NCBI RefSeq assembly: GCF_964355755.1
Contig: NC_092673.1
Coordinates: 10,051,001 to 10,115,000 of the forward strand
Length of the DNA stretch: 64,000 nt
Reading direction: 5' to 3'
DNA from: Antedon mediterranea
Lineage: Eukaryota > Echinodermata > Crinoidea > Comatulida > Antedonidae
Under the pieces are notes generated by a model. It was not told where the DNA came from. It did not search any database and saw only the letters and a list, made by a program, of their open reading frames with translations. This document shows positions 3,021 to 57,580 of this stretch, one piece after another; positions within the stretch are counted from its first letter, which is position 1; every line of letters starts with the position of its first letter. Made by a program: the position numbers and the translations under genes.

Positions 3021-3328
3021 AGATCACTGAGCTCATCTATGCCGACTTGTTTGCTAAACTGTGATGTGTCAATCGTTTTTTCGTTGCATCTTAAAAAATG
3101 TACTCCATTTTTATGGTAATGGGCCTTTGCTGTAAACCTTTCATCTGAATCCTTTTCCTTGATTTTCTCTAGTCATTGATTTTTTAGCAAAATCCGAACT
3201 AAATCAATTCGTAAAAGACATCTCAATATAATTATTCAATTAATCCTCAAATTAGTGACATTGACCTACAATATACTGTTCTGTACAAGACCTGAACAAT
3301 GTCTAATTTAATCAATCAAAGTAGTGGG

Positions 3329-4905
3329 TCCAGACAAAGAAGGGGGTGTCAGACCATCCACAGACAAAGAAGGGTTGTAAGACCATCCACATACAAAGAA
3401 GAGGGTGTAAGACCATCCACAGACAAAGAATGGGGTGTAAGACCATCCACAGACAAAGAAGGGTTGTAAGACCATCCACATACAAAGAAGAGGGTGTAAG
3501 ACCATCCACAGACAAAGAAGGAGGTGTAAGACCATCCACAGACAAAGAAGTGGGTGTAAGACCATCAACACACAAAGAAGGAGGTATAAGACCATCCACA
3601 GACAAAGAAAGGGGTGTAAGGCCATCTACAGACAAAGAAGGGAGTGTAGGACCGTCCACAGACAAAGAAGGGGGTATTAGACCATCCACTGACAAAAAAA
3701 GGGTATAGGACCATCCACAGACAAAGAAGGGGGCGTAGGACTGTCCACAGACAAAGAAGGGGGTGCAAGACCATCCACTGACAAAGAAAGGGGTATAGGA
3801 CCACTTACAGACAAAGAAGAGGGTATAAGACCATCCACAGACAAAGAAGGGGTGTGGGACCATCCACAGACAAAGAAGGGGGTGTAGGACCATCCACAGA
3901 CAAAGAAGGGGAGAAGATCATCCACAGACAAAGAAGGGGATATAAGACCATCCACGGACAAAGAAGGGGATATAAGACCATCCACAGACAAAGAAATAAG
4001 ACCATCCACAGACAAAGAAGTGGGTGTAAGACCATCCACAGACAAATTAAAGGAGTGCAAGACCATCCACACACAAAGAAAGGGGTGTAAGACCATCCAC
4101 ATACAAAAAAGGGGTGTAATACCATCAACGGACAAAGAAAGTGGTGTAATACCATCAACAGACAAAGAAGGGGGTATAAGGTCATCCACAGGCACAGAAG
4201 AGGGTGTAAGACCATCCACAGACAAAGAAGGGGGTGTAGGACCGTCCACAGACAAAGAAGGGGTGTAAGACCATCCACCACTGACAAAGAAAGGAGTATA
4301 GGACCACTTACAGACAAAGAAGGGGTATAAGACCATCCACAGACAAAAAAAGGAGGTTTAGGACCATCCACAGACAAAGAAGGGGTGTCGGACCATCCAC
4401 AATACAAAGAAGGACATGTAAGACCACCAACAGACAAAGAAGGGGTGTAAGACCATCCACATACAAGAAGGGATTATAAGACCATCTACAGACAAAGACA
4501 GGGGTGTAAGGCCATCCACACACAAAGAAAGGGGTTTAATACCATCAACAGACAAAGAAAGGGGTGTAATACCATCAACAGACACAGAAGGGGGTATAAG
4601 ACCATCCACAGACAAAGAAAGGGGTATATAAGACCGTCCACAGACAAAGAAAGGGGTGTAAGACCATCCACAGACAAAGAAGGGTGCATAAGACTATCCA
4701 CAGACAAAGAAGGGGGTGTAGGACCATCCACAGACAAAGAAGGGAGTGTAGGACCATCCACAGACAAAGAAGGGGTGTAAAAAGACCATCTACAGACAAA
4801 GAAATGGGTGTAACACCATCCACACACAAAGAAAGGGGTGTACAGTAATAATACCATCCACAGACAAAGAATGGGGTATAAGACCATCTACAGACAAAAA
4901 AGGAC
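3329..4905. repeat. Minisatellite, ~50 units of 30-31 bp
   Basis: The unit is close to GACCATCCACAGACAAAGAA followed by GGGGTGTAA, with point changes and 1-2 bp length changes between copies. It fills the loop between two foldback arms. Because the unit length is near a multiple of three, apparent open frames appear on both strands. They encode only the repeat and have no splice or initiation context, so I treat them as artefacts. Confidence 0.95.
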
Positions 4906-49395: not shown

Positions 49396-50335
49396 TTCGT
49401 TCAGCTTGCATCATCTTTTAAGGAGTTATGTGAGCAAAATGCCTCTTTGGAAACTCAGATTGCCAGCCTTCAAGCTTTATTAACAGAAAATGAGTTTCAT
49501 ACAGCTTCTCATCCCATTAGCAATCCTGTAATGTGTAAGTCAAACTCACAGCCTATTGCACTACACAACTCTTTTAATGCTTTGCAGAAAGAATTTAAGT
49601 CTCCAGCCTTAGCTTCTGAAAAAATCATGCAGCTGAAAACTTTCAGTCTGATATTACCATACAGAATAAAAGAAACCTAATAATTGGCGACTCAATGTTG
49701 AAATTAGTCAAGACTAAGGGTCTGTGTGACACAGCGGTGAAGACATTACGCGGTGCTATCACAACTCAGGTTTCTGATACTTTGGATCAAATGGATCTTA
49801 GCAAAGTACAAAATGTCATATTGCACGTTGGCACAAATGATTGTAGTGAGCTGAACTTTAAATTAGATCAGTTAAAGGAGGATTTCAGTGATCTTATGGT
49901 TCGTTTGAGGCATAAAACATCTGGTAACATCTATGTTTCAAGTATTTGCCCGCGTTTGGATGATCCAGAAATAAATATGAGAGTGCTAGAAGCAAATAAG
50001 ATGCTGAAATCAGTTTATGAAAATTGTTTTATAGACCACACTCTGGCATTCTCTTCCGAGCAAGGATATGATGCTTCCAAGTTTACACGCCATGGTCTCC
50101 ACCTTAGCAAATATGGAACATCTACACTGAATAAAGTAAATAAATAAATAAAGTAGTGTCTATTCTCTTCCCAGTCAAGAGACAAGAGCGCACAAAATCA
50201 GCGAATGTTCGATGTCACTACTGTAGCGAAAGTGGACATACACATAGAGTGTGTCGGCATGGAGGTCCAGTTATCTGCTGGAAATGCAAGCAGAGCGGAC
50301 ATAAAGCAAAGCTATGCCAAGTTCAAGAAAAGTGA
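49396..50335 (+). pseudogene. LINE ORF1: coiled coil, SGNH hydrolase, CCHC knuckles
   Basis: The first part (49396-49680) encodes a heptad-like stretch (LCEQNASLETQIASLQALL). After a frameshift, SDITIQNKRNLIIGDSMLK brings the SGNH block I GDS at 49686, followed by VILHVGTNDCSEL (block III, GTND) and RHGLHLSKYG (block V). The Asp normally next to the block V histidine is replaced, so an esterase would probably be inactive. The frame ends at 50147. In another frame, 50180-50335 encodes CHYCSESGHTHRVC and CWKCKQSGHKAKLC, two CX2CX4HX4C zinc knuckles, ending QVQEK-stop. ORF1 proteins of this kind bind the LINE RNA. Two frameshifts disable this copy. Confidence 0.82.
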
Positions 50336-50827
50336 GTTATTGGCAAAGAAGATATAGCCGACACAAACTTAATGGTGTTAAACGATCAAGAACGAAATGT
50401 AAATATAATCAATGTTAATGCTTCACAACCAATTACTAATTCTAAAATTAATGCCGAATGTACTTATAATAATAGTTTAAAGATCACATGACACGTTTTA
50501 AAAGTAGCAATTTTTCATCAAAATACGTTCTGCATACAACTATATATTGATATATTTAACATTTTTTGCAAAATTTTATGAAAAAAGTGATTTTTAACGA
50601 TGTTTAATAGAGGAAATTTTAAGGTGAGTGACGAAATCCTAAAAATCGGCAATGTCACATTCCAATCAGTTCGTGACGTCACTAATTGTAGTCGTCCGAA
50701 ATTCGGTTAGAGTGCACCGTCGCGCTGCATGTGGTACCACAGTATCTTCTCTATCCTTATTGTGTTGTATTGTATCTCTATTGAGCGAGTATATTTTCAT
50801 CGAAGTTTTACATTATTTTCCGATATT

Positions 50828-52066
50828 ATGCCAGTCAATTGTGTCGTTGGTGATTGTGTTCTTACTTCAAACGATGATGTAAGTTTTTTGGCTTTCCAAA
50901 AAACCCCAGAATAAGACGCCAGTGGATTCGTTTTGTCCAGTTTACTAGAGCCGATTTTCCTAGGCGAATGCTTTGAGTCGTCCTGTATGATGAAAAGAAA
51001 ATTGGGACTACCATCCACGCTAAGATAAGATAAGATACCATCCACGATGCAGATAAGAAAAAATAAAAGTAGTGAAACTGCGGAGAAACGCAAAAGGAGA
51101 AGTTCTGTCAAACGCCGGCCGGAGACAGGATGTAAGTATTCATTACCATTACTACTAGGCCTAGTCTAGTATCCTCTAGTAGGTCCCTGCCCCTAGGCCT
51201 ATTTCATTATTCTATCCAAACAAATCTCATTGTTGCCTTTAGTGTCGGGGTCCCATCAGTGGATGTAAGCCTACTTACTGTATCAATAATTAATAAAGCT
51301 AAACTGATTCAATAGCATTTTAAAGACTGTCTACATGCACCCATACCAGATGGCAGAAAAAAAAAATGGCTTCAACCAGGTACTAATTTATTTGTGCATT
51401 TAGAAATCACTAATAATAATTTGTTAGTACTGTTGTTTTAAATAATTGTGTAAATTTTCAACAGGGCTTGTGAGAAGCTAGCTGTGCAACCTGCTAGAAA
51501 AAACTCATCTACGAAAGGATGTTCAGAAATTAAGTCCACATGCTCAAACATCAGGAGTAGAGGCGTTCCATGGAACCATACTACATTTCGCACCCAAAAT
51601 GCTTGGGTATTCATACAATGGCATGTTAAGCAGCTTACTACTATTGTCATTTATCCTTACACTTACTATTGGTGTAGCATATTAAAAGTTAACATAAAAA
51701 TATCAACTAAAGAGAAAATTCTGGCAGGGCAGCAGCAAAAGATAGAGACGGTGTTTCCAAGAGCAAAAAGTGGTGGCTACACAATTACAGAAATTATTGA
51801 CAGATGCAACATTTGGTAAGCCAAAAAAATTTGATTGACAACCTGTATACTATTTTGTTTGATGACTTTGTTCATTTATTGACAATTGCATTTATTTTGT
51901 AACCACAGCTTATGTTGATGAGCTTATTTCAGAAACATTATACTTGTGCAGTAGTGGCAAGAAAGATTCTTCGGATTCAATTCCTGAATTAAGTTCACCA
52001 CCACCACCTGTGTGCTCAATCTTCGTTCCGCCAGATAAAGATGTTGCAATTTCAGATTACAAATGA
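50828..52066 (+). pseudogene. Broken THAP-domain gene of the TTAA element
   Basis: The ATG at 50828 opens MPVNCVVGDCVLTSNDDVSF, then LAFQKTP, which is the start of a THAP zinc finger (M-P-x-x-C-x4-C and the F-x-x-F-P-like box). A frameshift at about 50912 is followed by RRQWIRFVQFTRADF (the conserved Trp). Next comes ECFESSCMMKRKLGLPSTL in yet another frame, typical of the end of the domain. The second zinc-ligand pair (C-x2-H) falls in the break and is absent. A basic tail (EKRKRRSSVKRRPE) runs to a GTAAGT donor at 51132. Probable further exons lie at about 51465-51816 and 51909-52066; the last encodes YVDELISETLYLCSSGKK and SSPPPPVCSIFVPP before its stop. These downstream exons are inferred from splice sites only. 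THAP domains supply site-specific DNA binding in such transposases. Confidence 0.68.
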
Positions 52067-52134
52067 TGGTTTGCAAAGTAGACAAGAGCAAGAGCCACCA
52101 TTTTTTTCAATTTACTTCCATAATGTACTGTAGC

Positions 52135-52500
52135 ACGTATATAAACAAGAGATAGCATTGTCTTTTGTTATTTTTTTTTCATTTTAATTTATAAATATAT
52201 ACAGTATAAACAAGGGATAGCATTGTCTTCTGTTACTTTTTTACTACTTTCATATTATACAGTAATGTTCTGTAAAACCATAGAGATATTATAGTGAACT
52301 ATAATATCTCTATGGAAAACGTATAAACAAGGGATAGCATTGTCTTCTGTTACTTTTTTACTACTTTCATATTATACAGTAATGTTCTGTAAAACCATAG
52401 AGATATTATAGTGAACTATAATATCTCTATGGTAAAACGTATAAACAAGGGATAGCATTGTCTTCCGTTACTTTTTTACTTCTTTCATATGCAGTAATGT
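52135..52500. repeat. Tandem repeats carrying a duplicated 38-bp hairpin
   Basis: Four partial units of 'gtataaacaagggatagcat' to 'cagtaatgttctgtaaaac' begin near 52140, 52203, 52320 and 52437. In two of them an identical palindrome, CCATAGAGATATTATAGT-ga-ACTATAATATCTCTATGG, follows 'gtaaaa' (52278-52315 and 52395-52432). It could be a small hairpin insertion that was then duplicated with its unit. Confidence 0.85.
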
Positions 52501-52576
52501 ACTGTAAAACGTATATAAACAGCATATAAATAACAACTTGAAAAAAATTAAATATCTGCAATATTGCCTAATTTAC

Positions 52577-53750
52577 AGCCTGTATAGCCATCGTCTTCTG
52601 GGTTTGGGAAGGTTCTTCGAATCCACTGCACATGACGGGAGAACAACTCTATTTTCCCTACCAAGGTAGCCCCAACAGATTCTCACCAGGTTCCTGTATG
52701 CAACATGTCTCTACTGCCTGTGAAAGTATTGTTAAAAATTACAGGTTTAATATAACAAATTTCCTGTAAAAATACAATATGTTCAACAAGATACAAGAAA
52801 ATGGAATGAAAGCATATTGCACCTAGTATTAGTATACATAGAGCAGCTCAACTTACTCTTCGTTAGTGTGGGGTAAAGCAGCCATTGCGCCATACTGCTG
52901 TTTATATGACAGGTATGCTACTTGTATTGTAGCACCCACTCATTTAAACAGACTTCTCCGAATCCTGGATGGCGTGTTAAACACTCTTCATTCATCTCCA
53001 CTTTCTCCATTTTCTCTCATGGTCTTTGCAATTTCCTGGCAGCAAATGGACTTTCGTGCTGTTGGCATTTGTACACATACACCTGAATAAACAGGAATGT
53101 CAGATACACTGTTTTTACAGTTATATATGATGATATGATAGGGGTTGCAGCATTGCCATTACTATTTATTAATTACTGTATTAAGATTTTTTTACAACAT
53201 TAAATCAATTATGAATGATAAAGGCGAATCAATAGCAAATAAATAAACCTAGGCCTATTAGACTAAAGCTAGTACTCTGCAGTAGTAGCCTAGGCCTAGT
53301 AGTACTACTAGGGCCTACTAGTATTAGTAGTACTACTGGGCCTAGAGAGCTAGCTAGGCCTACTAAGTGTAGGCCTCTAGCTAGATAGAGGCCTACAATG
53401 ATATTAATAATACAGTATAATAAAAAAAAAATAGGCCTAGTTTAGCGCAGCCTATTATTATTACTACAACTTTACTTCATTCATCATCATTATAAGCTAT
53501 ATTGTACGTACCACTCTGTTATTAGCGTTCTCTTCGTGTGGTCCTCCAACCAAGTCTTCAACCTCTCCTTCTTCGTACTCAGGCTCGAACATATATGCTT
53601 GTGCGCCTAGCTACTGGGCTAGGCCCCTAGTAGGCCTTCATCACCATCGTCATTTTCTATATCTTCTTCTTCATCATTATCATCTTCGTCAAATGATGAA
53701 GATTTGTAATCGAGATTCAAACTAATGTTTTCTTCGGAATCAGATTCCAT
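52577..53750 (-). pseudogene. P2X7-ballast-domain-like gene inside the TTAA element
   Basis: Three exons can be traced on the minus strand. Exon 1 (53750-53512) begins MESDSEENISLNLDYKSSSF, continues with a long acidic run, and later reads AYMFEPEYEEGEVEDLV before a GTACGT donor. Exon 2 (53082-52857) reads MPTARKSICCQEIAKTM, then ECLTRHPGFGEVCLNEWVLQ, then VAYLSYKQQYGAMAALPHTN, ending at a GTAAGT donor. Exon 3 (52717 to about 52577) reads RHVAYRNLVRICWGYLGREN, RVVLPSCAV, then IRRTFPNPEDDGYTG. This is the order of the cysteine-rich ballast domain of vertebrate P2X7 receptors and of a large uncharacterised invertebrate family (MPT-x-E-S-x-CC, HPGF-x-x-VCLN-x-WVL, AYR-x-x-x-RW-GxLG, VLPSCVV, IR-x-x-FP-x-x-x-Y-x-GF). 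Several frameshifts, an in-frame TAG where a Tyr is expected, and an AGGCCTA-type insertion in exon 1 make it a pseudogene. No channel domain is present. Confidence 0.75.
53250..53460. repeat. AGGCCTA/TAGTACTA-rich intron
   Basis: The first intron of the ballast-like gene is largely made of AGGCCTA and AGTACTAGT words, like the intron of the MADF pseudogene at 7395-7740. Confidence 0.65.
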
Positions 53751-54387
53751 TACTGTTGTCTTTGATATTACTGTATATACACACGGCCGCTTTCAGTGTG
53801 TTGGTTCGGCGCCGGCCCAGCGCGCGTGTGTAACCTTTCCGGCCTTTTTGACTCCAACTTGTGACGTAGCAGTGATGACCTATAGGGTTGCCGCTTTTTT
53901 ATGACAATTTGTCCCAATTTTGAACAACGTAATTAAAAAATATTTTTAAAATATGAATTCGACCGAATTACTAATTACAAACACTTTATTCTTATTCTAG
54001 TAATCATTATCTAGCATATAAGTACAAAAATCTACAATATGTGATTTCAGTGTCATGTGATCTTTAAGTAATAATGTAAACCAAAGTGATTTTATGATAG
54101 ATTCAAAATTAGGTTCTGATAGTAAAAACAAGCTAAATATATTCTATTGCAATGTAAGAAGTGTTAAAAATAAGTTGCATGATATAAATTCTCGATTTAA
54201 TTCTTCATTTTATGATATTATATCTATGACAGAAACATGGCTTGACAATTCCATTTATGATAGTCAACTATTTAATAACGATTATATAGTTTTTAAAAAG
54301 GATAGAAACTCACATGGTGGGGGAGTACTTATTGCTGTAAAAACATCATTACAACCATCTGAGTGTCATGAACTAAATGATATTATA

Positions 54388-55296
54388 TAACACCTATATA
54401 AATTCCTGTCATTTGATTGGACGAATGTGGGTCACATGGCGTGCAATAGTACGCACTATTCAACGATCGTTAAATAGTACTTTTTGAAACATTTTTGTGT
54501 ACGAAAAAAAAAACGTCTCGCGGATGAAAAAAAATCTAGTACACAAATTATCCTATGATATGGCTATGTACTGTGAAATACAACAGCGCCACCTGTCGTC
54601 TGGTCTCAGTTTCATTTGTAAACACCACCGCGAGATATGCAACAGCAGCAGATATTTGTGTACGATTTGGACATTATGTACTAATTTCATTTAAAAAGGC
54701 ATTTAAATTAGCTTTAGATCGTTTTTAGGATTTTGATTAATTAATGGGGACATCCCTACAAGACGTGGAATTGTTGGAAAAACCATAATTAGCTTAGATA
54801 AGTTCCAATTGTCTGTCGAAGTTTTGCCTTTCAGCCAAGCTAGTACTAGGCTACTAGGTCTAGCCTAGGCCATGCTAGTATTAGGCTAGGCCTAGCCTAG
54901 GCGTTTTAGCCTTGCTAGGCCTAGGATTGTTTGGTCGTTTGTTGACATAATTAACACAAAAGTAGGTGTGTTTACGAAATCCATATAAATATAACATTTA
55001 ATATAACATTATTAAAAACCAAATGTTACTGTTTTTAATCAAATGTGTGTGAATGAAATGTAGTAAGCTTTGGCTAGGGCTACCTTTTATTTGATTCAAA
55101 TAACTAGAATTTATTTAGATGTTATATAAAACAAATAATGAATGTTTTGTATTCGTGTAATGGTACAAATAATGGCACTTGGTGAATGATGAAAGGTTAT
55201 ATCAACTCGGCTTTGCCTCGTTGATATAACCTTTCATCATTCACCTCGTGCCATTATTTGTACCATTGCACTCATAAACATTCATTATTTGTATAA
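54388..55296. mobile_element. 909-bp insertion ending in a long hairpin
   Basis: It is flanked by TATA direct repeats (54384-54387 and 55297-55300), and excising it joins the LINE endonuclease codons in frame (NDII then LELLWLEC). No inverted termini are obvious: the left end begins TAACACCTATATAAATTCC, while the right end is a 160-nt hairpin. It carries no recognisable coding sequence and includes an AGGCCTAG cluster at 54840-54925. Confidence 0.65.
55132..55291. other. 160-nt hairpin with ~77-bp arms
   Basis: The left arm CAAATAATGAATGTTT...GTTATATCAAC pairs with the right arm GTTGATATAAC...AAACATTCATTATTTG around a 'ggctttgcc' tip. There are only a few mismatches and one 3-nt length difference. 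The word ACAAATAATG also occurs inside each arm, so the arms contain a short direct repeat. Confidence 0.9.
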
Positions 55297-57580
55297 TATA
55301 CTGGAGTTATTGTGGTTAGAGTGTTACACTGGTATTGGGAAAATTCTTATAGGTGTATATTACAGACCACCATCTTCCAATATTCAATACACAAATGCTT
55401 TATACACCAATTTAGAAAAAGTACAAAGAAAAATGACTCAGTACAAATGGGTTTCGCTTATTGGTGATTTTAATATACATATTGAATGGAATGATATACA
55501 GGTAGATAAAAGTAGTGGTATTACCGCCAGTGGCGACGTAAATCAGAGTGCCAAACTTCTCGAAACTACACTAACCAACATTTTAGATAAACATGCTCCT
55601 TGGAAAAAACACAGGGTACGTAAAAAAATAGCTCCTTGGCTCTCTGATGATGTAATTGGAAATATGAGAGAAAGAGATAAACTCAAAAGAGAATGTAAAC
55701 ATTCTAAAAATGAATCACTCTGGAAAAGGTACAGAAAGTATAGAAATATGTGCAATAAATTAATATGTAAAACTAAAAGTAAAGCTAATTTTATTCAAGA
55801 AAGTATAAAAAGAAAATAAAAATGATGTAAAAAAAACATGGGATACCATAAGATATATTATATCGTCAAAAAAGAAAACTCAAACTATTCAAACAATTTG
55901 CAATGATAATGGCGATGTCCTCTATAAAGCTAAGGACATCGCAAATGAAATTAATACATTTTTCTCAAATATAGGTTCAAATCTTGCATCACAAATACAT
56001 GAGCCGATAAATGATATAAATTATGATGAAATCGATGCTTTCACCGAAAATAATTTTGAATTCGTACACATCACATGTGAATTTGTATATAAATACTTAA
56101 GTATTCTTTCAAAAAACAAAGCCACTGGTCATGATAACTTACCACCGGGCATTCTAAAACTGTCTGCCCCGATTATATCCCCAACAATTACAAGAATCGT
56201 AAATCACTCCTTCACAACATGTAAATTCCCAAATACGTGGAAAATAGCAAAGGTCACGCCAATTTTTAAGAATGGTGAAAAAACTAACCCTAATAATTAT
56301 CGTCCCATTTCCGTCCTACCTATACTTTCAAAAATAATTGAACGAGTCGTTTTTAATCAACTTTATGCTTTTTTGAATAATAATAATCTGTTATGTATAA
56401 ATCAATCAGGTTTTCGACCATCATACTCAACATCTACTGCACTTACAAAAGTGACGGAAGACTGGTATAGTGCAATAGACGAGGGTAAGCGGGTCGGAAT
56501 CTGTTTACTAGATTTTAAAAAGGCCTTTGATACGGTAAACCATAACATACTATTAAGCAAATTGAGACTTGAGCTATTGTAACATAATTTGGGGAAATAG
56601 TAGTCAAACTCTAATGAAAAGAGTTCAAACTATCCAAAACAGAACAGCTCGAATCGTGTGTGGTCTAACATGGGACACACCTAGTAGTGAGGCACTAAGA
56701 CAAATTAATTGGTCACCTTTATTTTATCAAGATAGATATGAATGTTGTATGGTTATATATAAGGTTTTGACAGATAATGCCCCACCTTACCTAAATAATG
56801 TATTTACATACAATGATATAAATTATAATCTAAGGCACAGTGATACACATCTATTCATCCCGAAGCCAAAAACCGATTTAAAAAAACGAAGTCTGTCTTA
56901 TCGTGGAGCAATTATATGGAATAGTCTCAATGTTGATACCCTTCCAAATTCAGTTAAGTTGTTTAAAACGTATCTAAAAAATGCATTGTAAAACATAATG
57001 GTATGGTAATCTACGATGGTGTACATCCAACTTTTAAAATGGCTAAATACTATGTAAAATGTGTGTTTTATCACTATTATTTTAAGGTAAATGAAATCAA
57101 AAAGATTTATCATGTATTACAGTAGAATTCCAATAAATTATACACTTCGATAAGGGTTTCCGTTTACACGGGAAGTACCGGTATGGTGTACCCTAAATAG
57201 AGGTGTCAGATGAAGGGGATTCTGCTGTAATTTTGTTTCTTTTCAATTTCAATTTTTTCGTTTCTGTCGTATTTATATGGTGTTGATTTTTTTTTGTAAT
57301 ACAGTATCACGAACTTGTGTAAAAACAATCAATATTGATTGAACGAGTTGTACTGCACATCAGTCTCGTGTCTAAATAAAGTTTATATATACTGTATAAT
57401 TTATGTATTAACATGCTCGTCTGTATCTCAAATTTAGAGGATCAGCTGTGTCTGTAGTATCCAATAAGAATTTAGTGAAGTTCGAGAAGCAAGGAAGAGC
57501 AACCCTGTGTTGATCTGGGCCTCCATGCCTATTCATGGTAACAACGACGTTTGTAATTTTATGAAAAAAATGATACTTAC

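Follow-up and report, generated by a model that had tools for sequence, protein, structure and literature searches.

The 64,000 nucleotides of the crinoid Antedon mediterranea analysed here (contig NC_092673.1, positions 10,051,001 to 10,115,000; hereafter the window) contain a 3.6-kb unit in which a transposase-like gene faces a gene resembling the ballast domain of the P2X7 receptor, which raises the question of what this unit is and how such a gene comes to lie within it. The unit (3,583 bp, 50481..54063, no strand assigned) has defined borders with a target-site duplication, two convergent genes with broken reading frames, no DDE core and related copies elsewhere in the genome, and it is very probably a dead copy, with an internal deletion, of a two-gene Kolobok transposon of the Kol0 type inserted in a long interspersed nuclear element (LINE), an estimate that does not extend to any helper function of its second gene, KolX. 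The element is a new, defective member of an already known kind of transposon, itself dead and ordinary; new are a crinoid member, genome-wide linkage counts, signs of conservation and drift in KolX, and a weakly supported hint that the tail of P2X7 is nearer to the ballast genes of loci L046 and L054.

Regarding the borders, a left TTAA target-site copy (50477..50480) precedes the left terminal inverted repeat (TIR) AGATCACATGACAC (50481..50494, plus strand), and an identical right TIR (54050..54063, minus strand) precedes the right TTAA copy (54064..54067); the 14-bp termini and adjoining TTAA, found by inverted-repeat and genome searches, form a perfect 18-bp inverted repeat (I8). Beyond these two ends, no further match to AGATCACATGACAC with up to two mismatches was detected in the window, while the exact 18-mer has six occurrences in the 354-Mb genome, which make up three facing pairs (the window copy and copies B and C, likewise flanked by TTAA). 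In an empty-site test, 200 bp from each flank were joined by a single TTAA (400 bases) and searched against the genome, and the joined flanks were uninterrupted at four places over bases 1-399 or 1-400 of 400 (92-97% identity), with a fifth place matching bases 156-400 at 99%, likewise across the junction. As these matches, which are related LINE copies, cross the junction uninterrupted, the element is a single precise insertion at TTAA inside a non-long-terminal-repeat (non-LTR) retrotransposon, identified by Pfam search at 49620-50480 and 54068-56991, in which the part left of the element gave a zinc knuckle and a GDSL-like match under the cut-off, and the part right of it a reverse transcriptase (51.4 bits) and an endonuclease match under the cut-off. 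The sequence-only reading of this stretch, made without database searches, had proposed exactly these borders and an assignment to Kolobok, and both hold: the target is TTAA, the ends read AG...CT, in agreement with the 5'-RR...YY-3' termini of the superfamily, and THAP matches and relatives with a PF20700-type transposase were found. It had noted neither that both genes are broken and the DDE core gone nor that the element lies inside a non-LTR retrotransposon.

The plus-strand gene is a decayed THAP/Kolobok transposase without DDE core. It comprises a THAP-type N-terminal piece with broken frame (50828..50973), a piece reading ...CLHAPI..KKKWLQPGT (51316..51384, from tblastn with the crinoid proteins P0015 and P0016), a piece with the stretch QTSGVEAFH, which likely would hold the last catalytic E of the transposase (51482..51643; 81% to P0015, 78% to P0016), and an open frame for the C-terminal tail (51866..52063), which, used as a query, finds the corresponding tails in the L060 and L073 groups; the C-terminal pieces match P0015 and P0016. 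P0016 scores above cut-off for PF20700, the Mutator-like transposase model, and carries DVWH, of the C/DxxH form, within residues 1-141, and the L073-family transposase shows DCWH and gives matches below cut-off to MULE and ISL3 transposases; a DDD/E core with C/DxxH is thus present in close relatives. Residues 1-141 of P0016, the core, found no match at E 0.01 in the window copy or in copies B, C and E, and the central DDE core is therefore gone from these four region-spanning copies. Lacking it, the window copy is a defective derivative and not an autonomous Kolobok.

On the minus strand, the convergent three-exon gene described earlier was located together with the motifs named for it: exon 1 with an acidic N-terminus and AYMFEPE (53512..53750; tblastn with the A. 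japonica protein P0003, and alignment), exon 2 (52857..53082; tblastn and alignment) and exon 3 (52548..52717; borders from the sequence), with the reading frame broken in all three. The read-through matches PF20478 (P2RX7_C) with E 5.5e-14 and 52.9 bits against a cut-off of 23.5, a score that depends on the frames chosen; single-piece Pfam scores are independent of that choice, and the last-exon piece alone gives E 0.016, below cut-off. Judged by this profile, the minus-strand gene is a ballast gene, as its first describer had suspected; it is called KolX here and is broken. The later zinc-ligand cysteine clusters are kept, while the first CxCxxC cluster, which should lie in exon 2, is gone from the window copy and kept in B and C, and the conserved clusters of the P2X7 ballast are therefore not all present together in the window copy. 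Three cysteines, two of them adjacent, are invariant among 15 aligned ballast proteins. The public record of P0003 begins with MCIRDR, which to our eye resembles an adapter artefact.

Genome searches for other copies recovered, besides the window copy, B (8.9 kb, on C3) and C (20.3 kb, on C2), both bounded by TTAA and TIRs, D (97% over 1156-2567, without ends), E, and the short right-end pieces F and G. The window copy, B, C and D each have a ballast gene, and wherever both ends are kept (window copy, B and C) transposase pieces occur as well. One alternative is that the ballast gene was a host gene taken up as passenger cargo by a single element, through capture or later insertion. The degraded state of the window element, without DDE core, and the incomplete copies E, F and G, in which no ballast gene was seen, could be read in its favour, but B and C have the gene in the matching place and order, and no insertion boundary common to the window copy, B and C was found around the minus-strand gene, such as one near 52577-53750; together with the genome-wide linkage described below, this makes passenger cargo a very improbable origin. 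The secondary boundary, the copies lacking the minus-strand gene and the missing profile match that might have spoken against the earlier proposal were likewise not encountered among these three copies.

Regarding the length of B and C, their extra pieces (5.0 kb in B, 4.85 kb in C) occupy different positions and overlap slightly at the borders, and the proposal that either is the transposase core was rejected, residues 1-141 of P0016 being unmatched throughout both copies. Copy C has in addition its own 11.9-kb insertion directly upstream of the ballast gene. Transposon-like frames occur in B's 5.0-kb piece and C's 11.9-kb piece, and no frame of at least 130 residues was found in the 4.85-kb piece. 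Nested insertions with such frames were seen in B (L037), presumably Harbinger-like, and in C (L038-L040), which we take to be LTR- and LINE-like. The 11.9-kb interruption in C and the start of fragment F fall at one point (window 53806, element position 3326), where C and F have some further bases in common (L038-L040, L044).

Across the genome, PF20478 gave 70 exon matches at 66 loci, several in equal-score sets, and none in 14 control genomes; as these searches score the best candidates only, all counts are lower bounds. P0016 gave 98 genome matches and THAP 75. A P0016-type match lies within 10 kb of 32 of the 70 ballast matches, 29 times in convergent orientation (random mean 0.29, maximum 4 in 1000 placements), and a THAP match within 10 kb of 37, convergent in 35 (random mean 0.33, maximum 3 in 1000), where the placements used a guessed length for C11 (20 Mb in the P0016 run, 19 Mb in the THAP run). 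Either marker is found within 10 kb of 38 of the 70, a union that took 33 of the 98 P0016 matches, those near ballast. With tails of several families as queries, an opposite-strand transposase piece was detected within 1.5 kb in 29 of the 30 ballast loci fetched (L046-L075, of 66), compared with one of 13 controls, the positive being copy E of the window element. Similarity on the KolX side stops at ...CT|TTAA in all five members of the L049 family, all four of the L056 family and nine of the ten L060-group copies reaching there, and one comparison gave the border CT|TTAA for the L073 family. Linkage so far above chance argues against capture by one element, and it fits, in this genome, the proposal that the transposon is a vehicle for ballast genes, which face transposase pieces tail to tail and, at loci whose ends could be identified, lie within units bounded by TTAA.

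The L073 family, which is better preserved, gives the clearest view of complete elements. Its end TTAAAGTGCTAGTGCC has 21 occurrences, which form nine facing pairs and leave three ends unpaired; the pairs span 4.72-4.75 kb in five cases and more in four. All nine TTAA/TIR pairs hold a transposase match and a THAP match above cut-off, and eight hold a scored ballast match, with the gene convergent to the transposase; in the ninth the gene is broken, in a stretch 99% identical to L073. For this family, the count answers the earlier suggestion to test whether intact copies always carry both genes, and a ballast gene in nine of nine pairs is again contrary to passenger cargo. L073 and L074 are similar past the element end too and are therefore probably copies of one insertion. 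For the L049 family, its end pattern was tried as both termini and rejected: 12 matches gave no facing pair, five being the KolX-side ends of L049-L053, and the other terminus was not located. Near its two ends the L060 group carries one segment in inverted duplicate (75%; L062:131-246 and 2638-2757), and a portion of the KolX N-terminal region is consequently read inwards from either side.

Several results weigh against reading the window element as a member of a two-gene Kol0-type family. The plus gene had been called THAP-type, and the THAP match of copy C reaches 49.2 bits, above cut-off, with stops inside it; in the window itself, the PF05485 (THAP) match at 50878-50973 has E 0.0015 and 19.7 bits against a 23.9-bit cut-off. 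The putative placement in Kol0 draws on a KolX with ballast fold (PF20478). No ballast gene was seen in copies E, F and G, each of them missing at least one end. The 70 PF20478 matches do not include the window copy, B, C or D, whose broken exons fall below the search threshold. Regarding linkage, 32 of the 70 matches lie more than 10 kb from any THAP or P0016-type match; among them are 13 L060-group copies, the L046/L054 type and a single match located in a TIR pair of 23 kb. Twenty-one of these 32 are in 18 fetched loci, of which 17 have a transposase tail piece and L056 has no opposite-strand tail within 1.5 kb, and the tail comparison covers these 21, the other 11, among them the match in the 23-kb pair, lying outside it. 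Finally, some tail queries came from the families that they matched, and links across families are weaker, e.g., 25% identity and E 5e-5 for L046.

The loci without nearby markers also allow the alternative that some ballast loci, with the low-copy L046/L054 type as an example, became host genes by domestication, the adjoining transposase tails being fossils. Neither THAP nor P0016-type matches lie within 10 kb of L046, L047, L055 or L054, the TTAA ends of L046 and L055 were not found in the flanking sequence examined, the L046-type tail is tied to other families by that weak similarity, and P0017 and P0018 of A. mediterranea are publicly named 'P2X purinoceptor 7-like'. However, L046, L047 and L055 are three copies with 96-99% identity on two chromosomes, each with a convergent transposase-like tail, and domestication of such loci seems unlikely, if conceivable.

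The linkage of ballast genes to transposons had been described before, and the following comparisons refer to the accessible parts of the cited papers. Kojima and Bao (2022; PMC9587614) report the ballast fold in KolX of Kol0 Kolobok transposons and an origin of P2X7 by fusion of a P2X4-like receptor with KolX; the suggestion that a P2X receptor gained its ballast through such transposons is thus right and already in print. Among the literature searched, PMC9587614 alone links Kolobok or KolX to P2X7, besides one review that mentions each word once. Ballast relatives had been reported earlier (PMC7016195), in a main text from which the word 'transpos' is absent. The Kol0 lineage with KolX (the Kolobok-1_XT group; PMC9587614) resembles the window element in TTAA duplication, AG...CT ends, THAP/DDE relatives and a second protein with ballast fold, whereas the window copy has lost the DDE core and both frames and is hosted by a crinoid; the words crinoid, Antedon and Anneissia are absent from the main text of PMC9587614. 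The usual Kolobok motifs are THAP, DDE and H2CH, with AG ends and TTAA (PMC6004289), and the XKol elements of Xenopus share the AG terminal sequences and TTAA and usually have THAP, DDE and an H2CH zinc finger, but their full-length forms measure 6.8-13.9 kb, and KolX and P2X do not occur in that main text (PMC6004289). As in the window element, the transposase of KolobokP is accompanied by an accessory gene on the opposite strand, but KolobokP has long terminal direct repeats and a His-Me nuclease (PMC9587614); no long terminal direct repeat is in the repeat list of the window, and no search was aimed at a His-Me nuclease. The vertebrate P2X7 ballast (PMC7016195; PDB 6u9v and others) differs in being joined to a channel, while the window-type protein is separate, small, transposon-borne and without a P2X channel part, and keeps the GDP-contact residues only in part. 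The counts given here, made across a whole echinoderm genome, independently confirm the proposal of 2022 by which ballast domains are genes of transposons. As regards viruses, two stretches in IMG/VR viral contigs matched the ballast pattern and neither was confirmed.

What KolX does may be approached through its substitution pattern. Between families, four pairs of ballast exons have proportions of synonymous differences (pS) of 0.76-0.90 versus non-synonymous ones (pN) of 0.18-0.39, for which no pN/pS ratio is given because synonymous sites are near saturation. In the defective L060 group, pN/pS is 1.03 over 12 of 13 exons, and given this neutral drift the idea that selection keeps KolX inside non-autonomous copies was rejected. 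Conservation between families with drift in defective copies is the pattern expected of a trans-acting helper, to judge from these substitutions. In intact relatives, the transposase would move the unit between TTAA sites, its THAP end binding DNA and its DDE core cutting; KolX would be a small ballast protein structured by zinc and encoded on the opposite strand, and defective copies such as that in the window would have been mobilised by proteins of other copies and then decayed. That KolX helps transposition in trans is the function towards which we lean, if only slightly. Speaking against it are a fifth, more distant family pair with little contrast (pS 0.63, pN 0.51), the composition of the L060 ratio, which includes two exons with a frame shift near the end, and the finding of no experiment on KolX action in the accessible parts of the literature searched. 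KolX might alternatively be selfish in another way, countering host silencing or blocking rival copies and not aiding the transposition reaction. A native gene conserved between families and drifting in defective copies is compatible with any trans-acting function, and the data indicate no silencing target for KolX, while equally failing to separate the two roles; we regard such an anti-silencing or blocking function as rather unlikely. Families with near-identical copies, in which KolX can be tested, are available.

Regarding the origin of the P2X7 ballast, the receptor and the transposon gene are separate in this genome, since the 12 P2X exon matches lie at two places on C3, both more than 1.4 Mb from any scored ballast match, with no ballast fused to a P2X channel; this distance likewise does not fit a captured host gene. 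The ballast of the window element is, by sequence comparison, not the type most similar to P2X7: KolX of L046 aligns with the human P2X7 ballast over residues 43-159 of 163 including all cysteine clusters (E 7e-18, 68 bits), whereas window-type KolX against rat P2X7 gives E 3e-3 and 20 bits. A profile built from L046, L054 and rat P2X7 matched 303 proteins, of which 120 were listed, and among the matches listed are molluscs (bivalves), echinoderms (starfish), a hemichordate, cartilaginous fishes (sharks), lungfish, frog, teleosts and mammalian P2X7, although with the rat P2X7 row inside the profile this list is not an independent test. In a 20-row tree P2X7 groups with L054 (92/66) and L046 (83/78), and in a 41-row tree it falls on the L046/L054 side (support 77/87), none of these supports being strong; placement with the window type is not rejected (approximately unbiased test, p 0.131), and the tree program warns of long branches meeting elsewhere. 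It is thus quite possible, if short of probable, that the P2X7 ballast derives from this second, divergent KolX type, which may still be transposon-borne, and not from the window type. If so, it becomes possible to name and date the donor lineage of a domain found in a major immune receptor, and the results suggest a KolX branch for comparison with P2X7.

In rat P2X7, the residues contacting guanosine diphosphate (GDP) are R546-H547, R574, R578 and K583 (PMC7016195). An RH pair corresponding to R546-H547 is conserved in at least 90% of the 15 aligned ballast proteins, the R578 position is mostly R, and the remaining contact positions differ; the RH part of the GDP site could therefore predate the receptor. 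An AlphaFold model of P0011 (mean pLDDT 57) was used for one second-look alignment only.

Elsewhere, the window is repetitive at 3312-4887, with long open frames on both strands, and at C5:15229361-15246477 three tandem THAP/transposase units with equal or near-equal scores lie about 7 kb apart, without a scored ballast match. Between the convergent genes of the element (52277..52433, no strand assigned; repeats I1, I7 and I12) there are two copies of a near-perfect palindrome of 38-39 bp, CCATAGAGATATTATAGTGAACTATAATATCTCTATGG, at 52277-52315 and 52395-52433, doubled in a 117-bp tandem unit. By genome search, this palindrome occurs at 28 more places outside copies of the 3,583-bp element and is possibly a tiny mobile palindrome.

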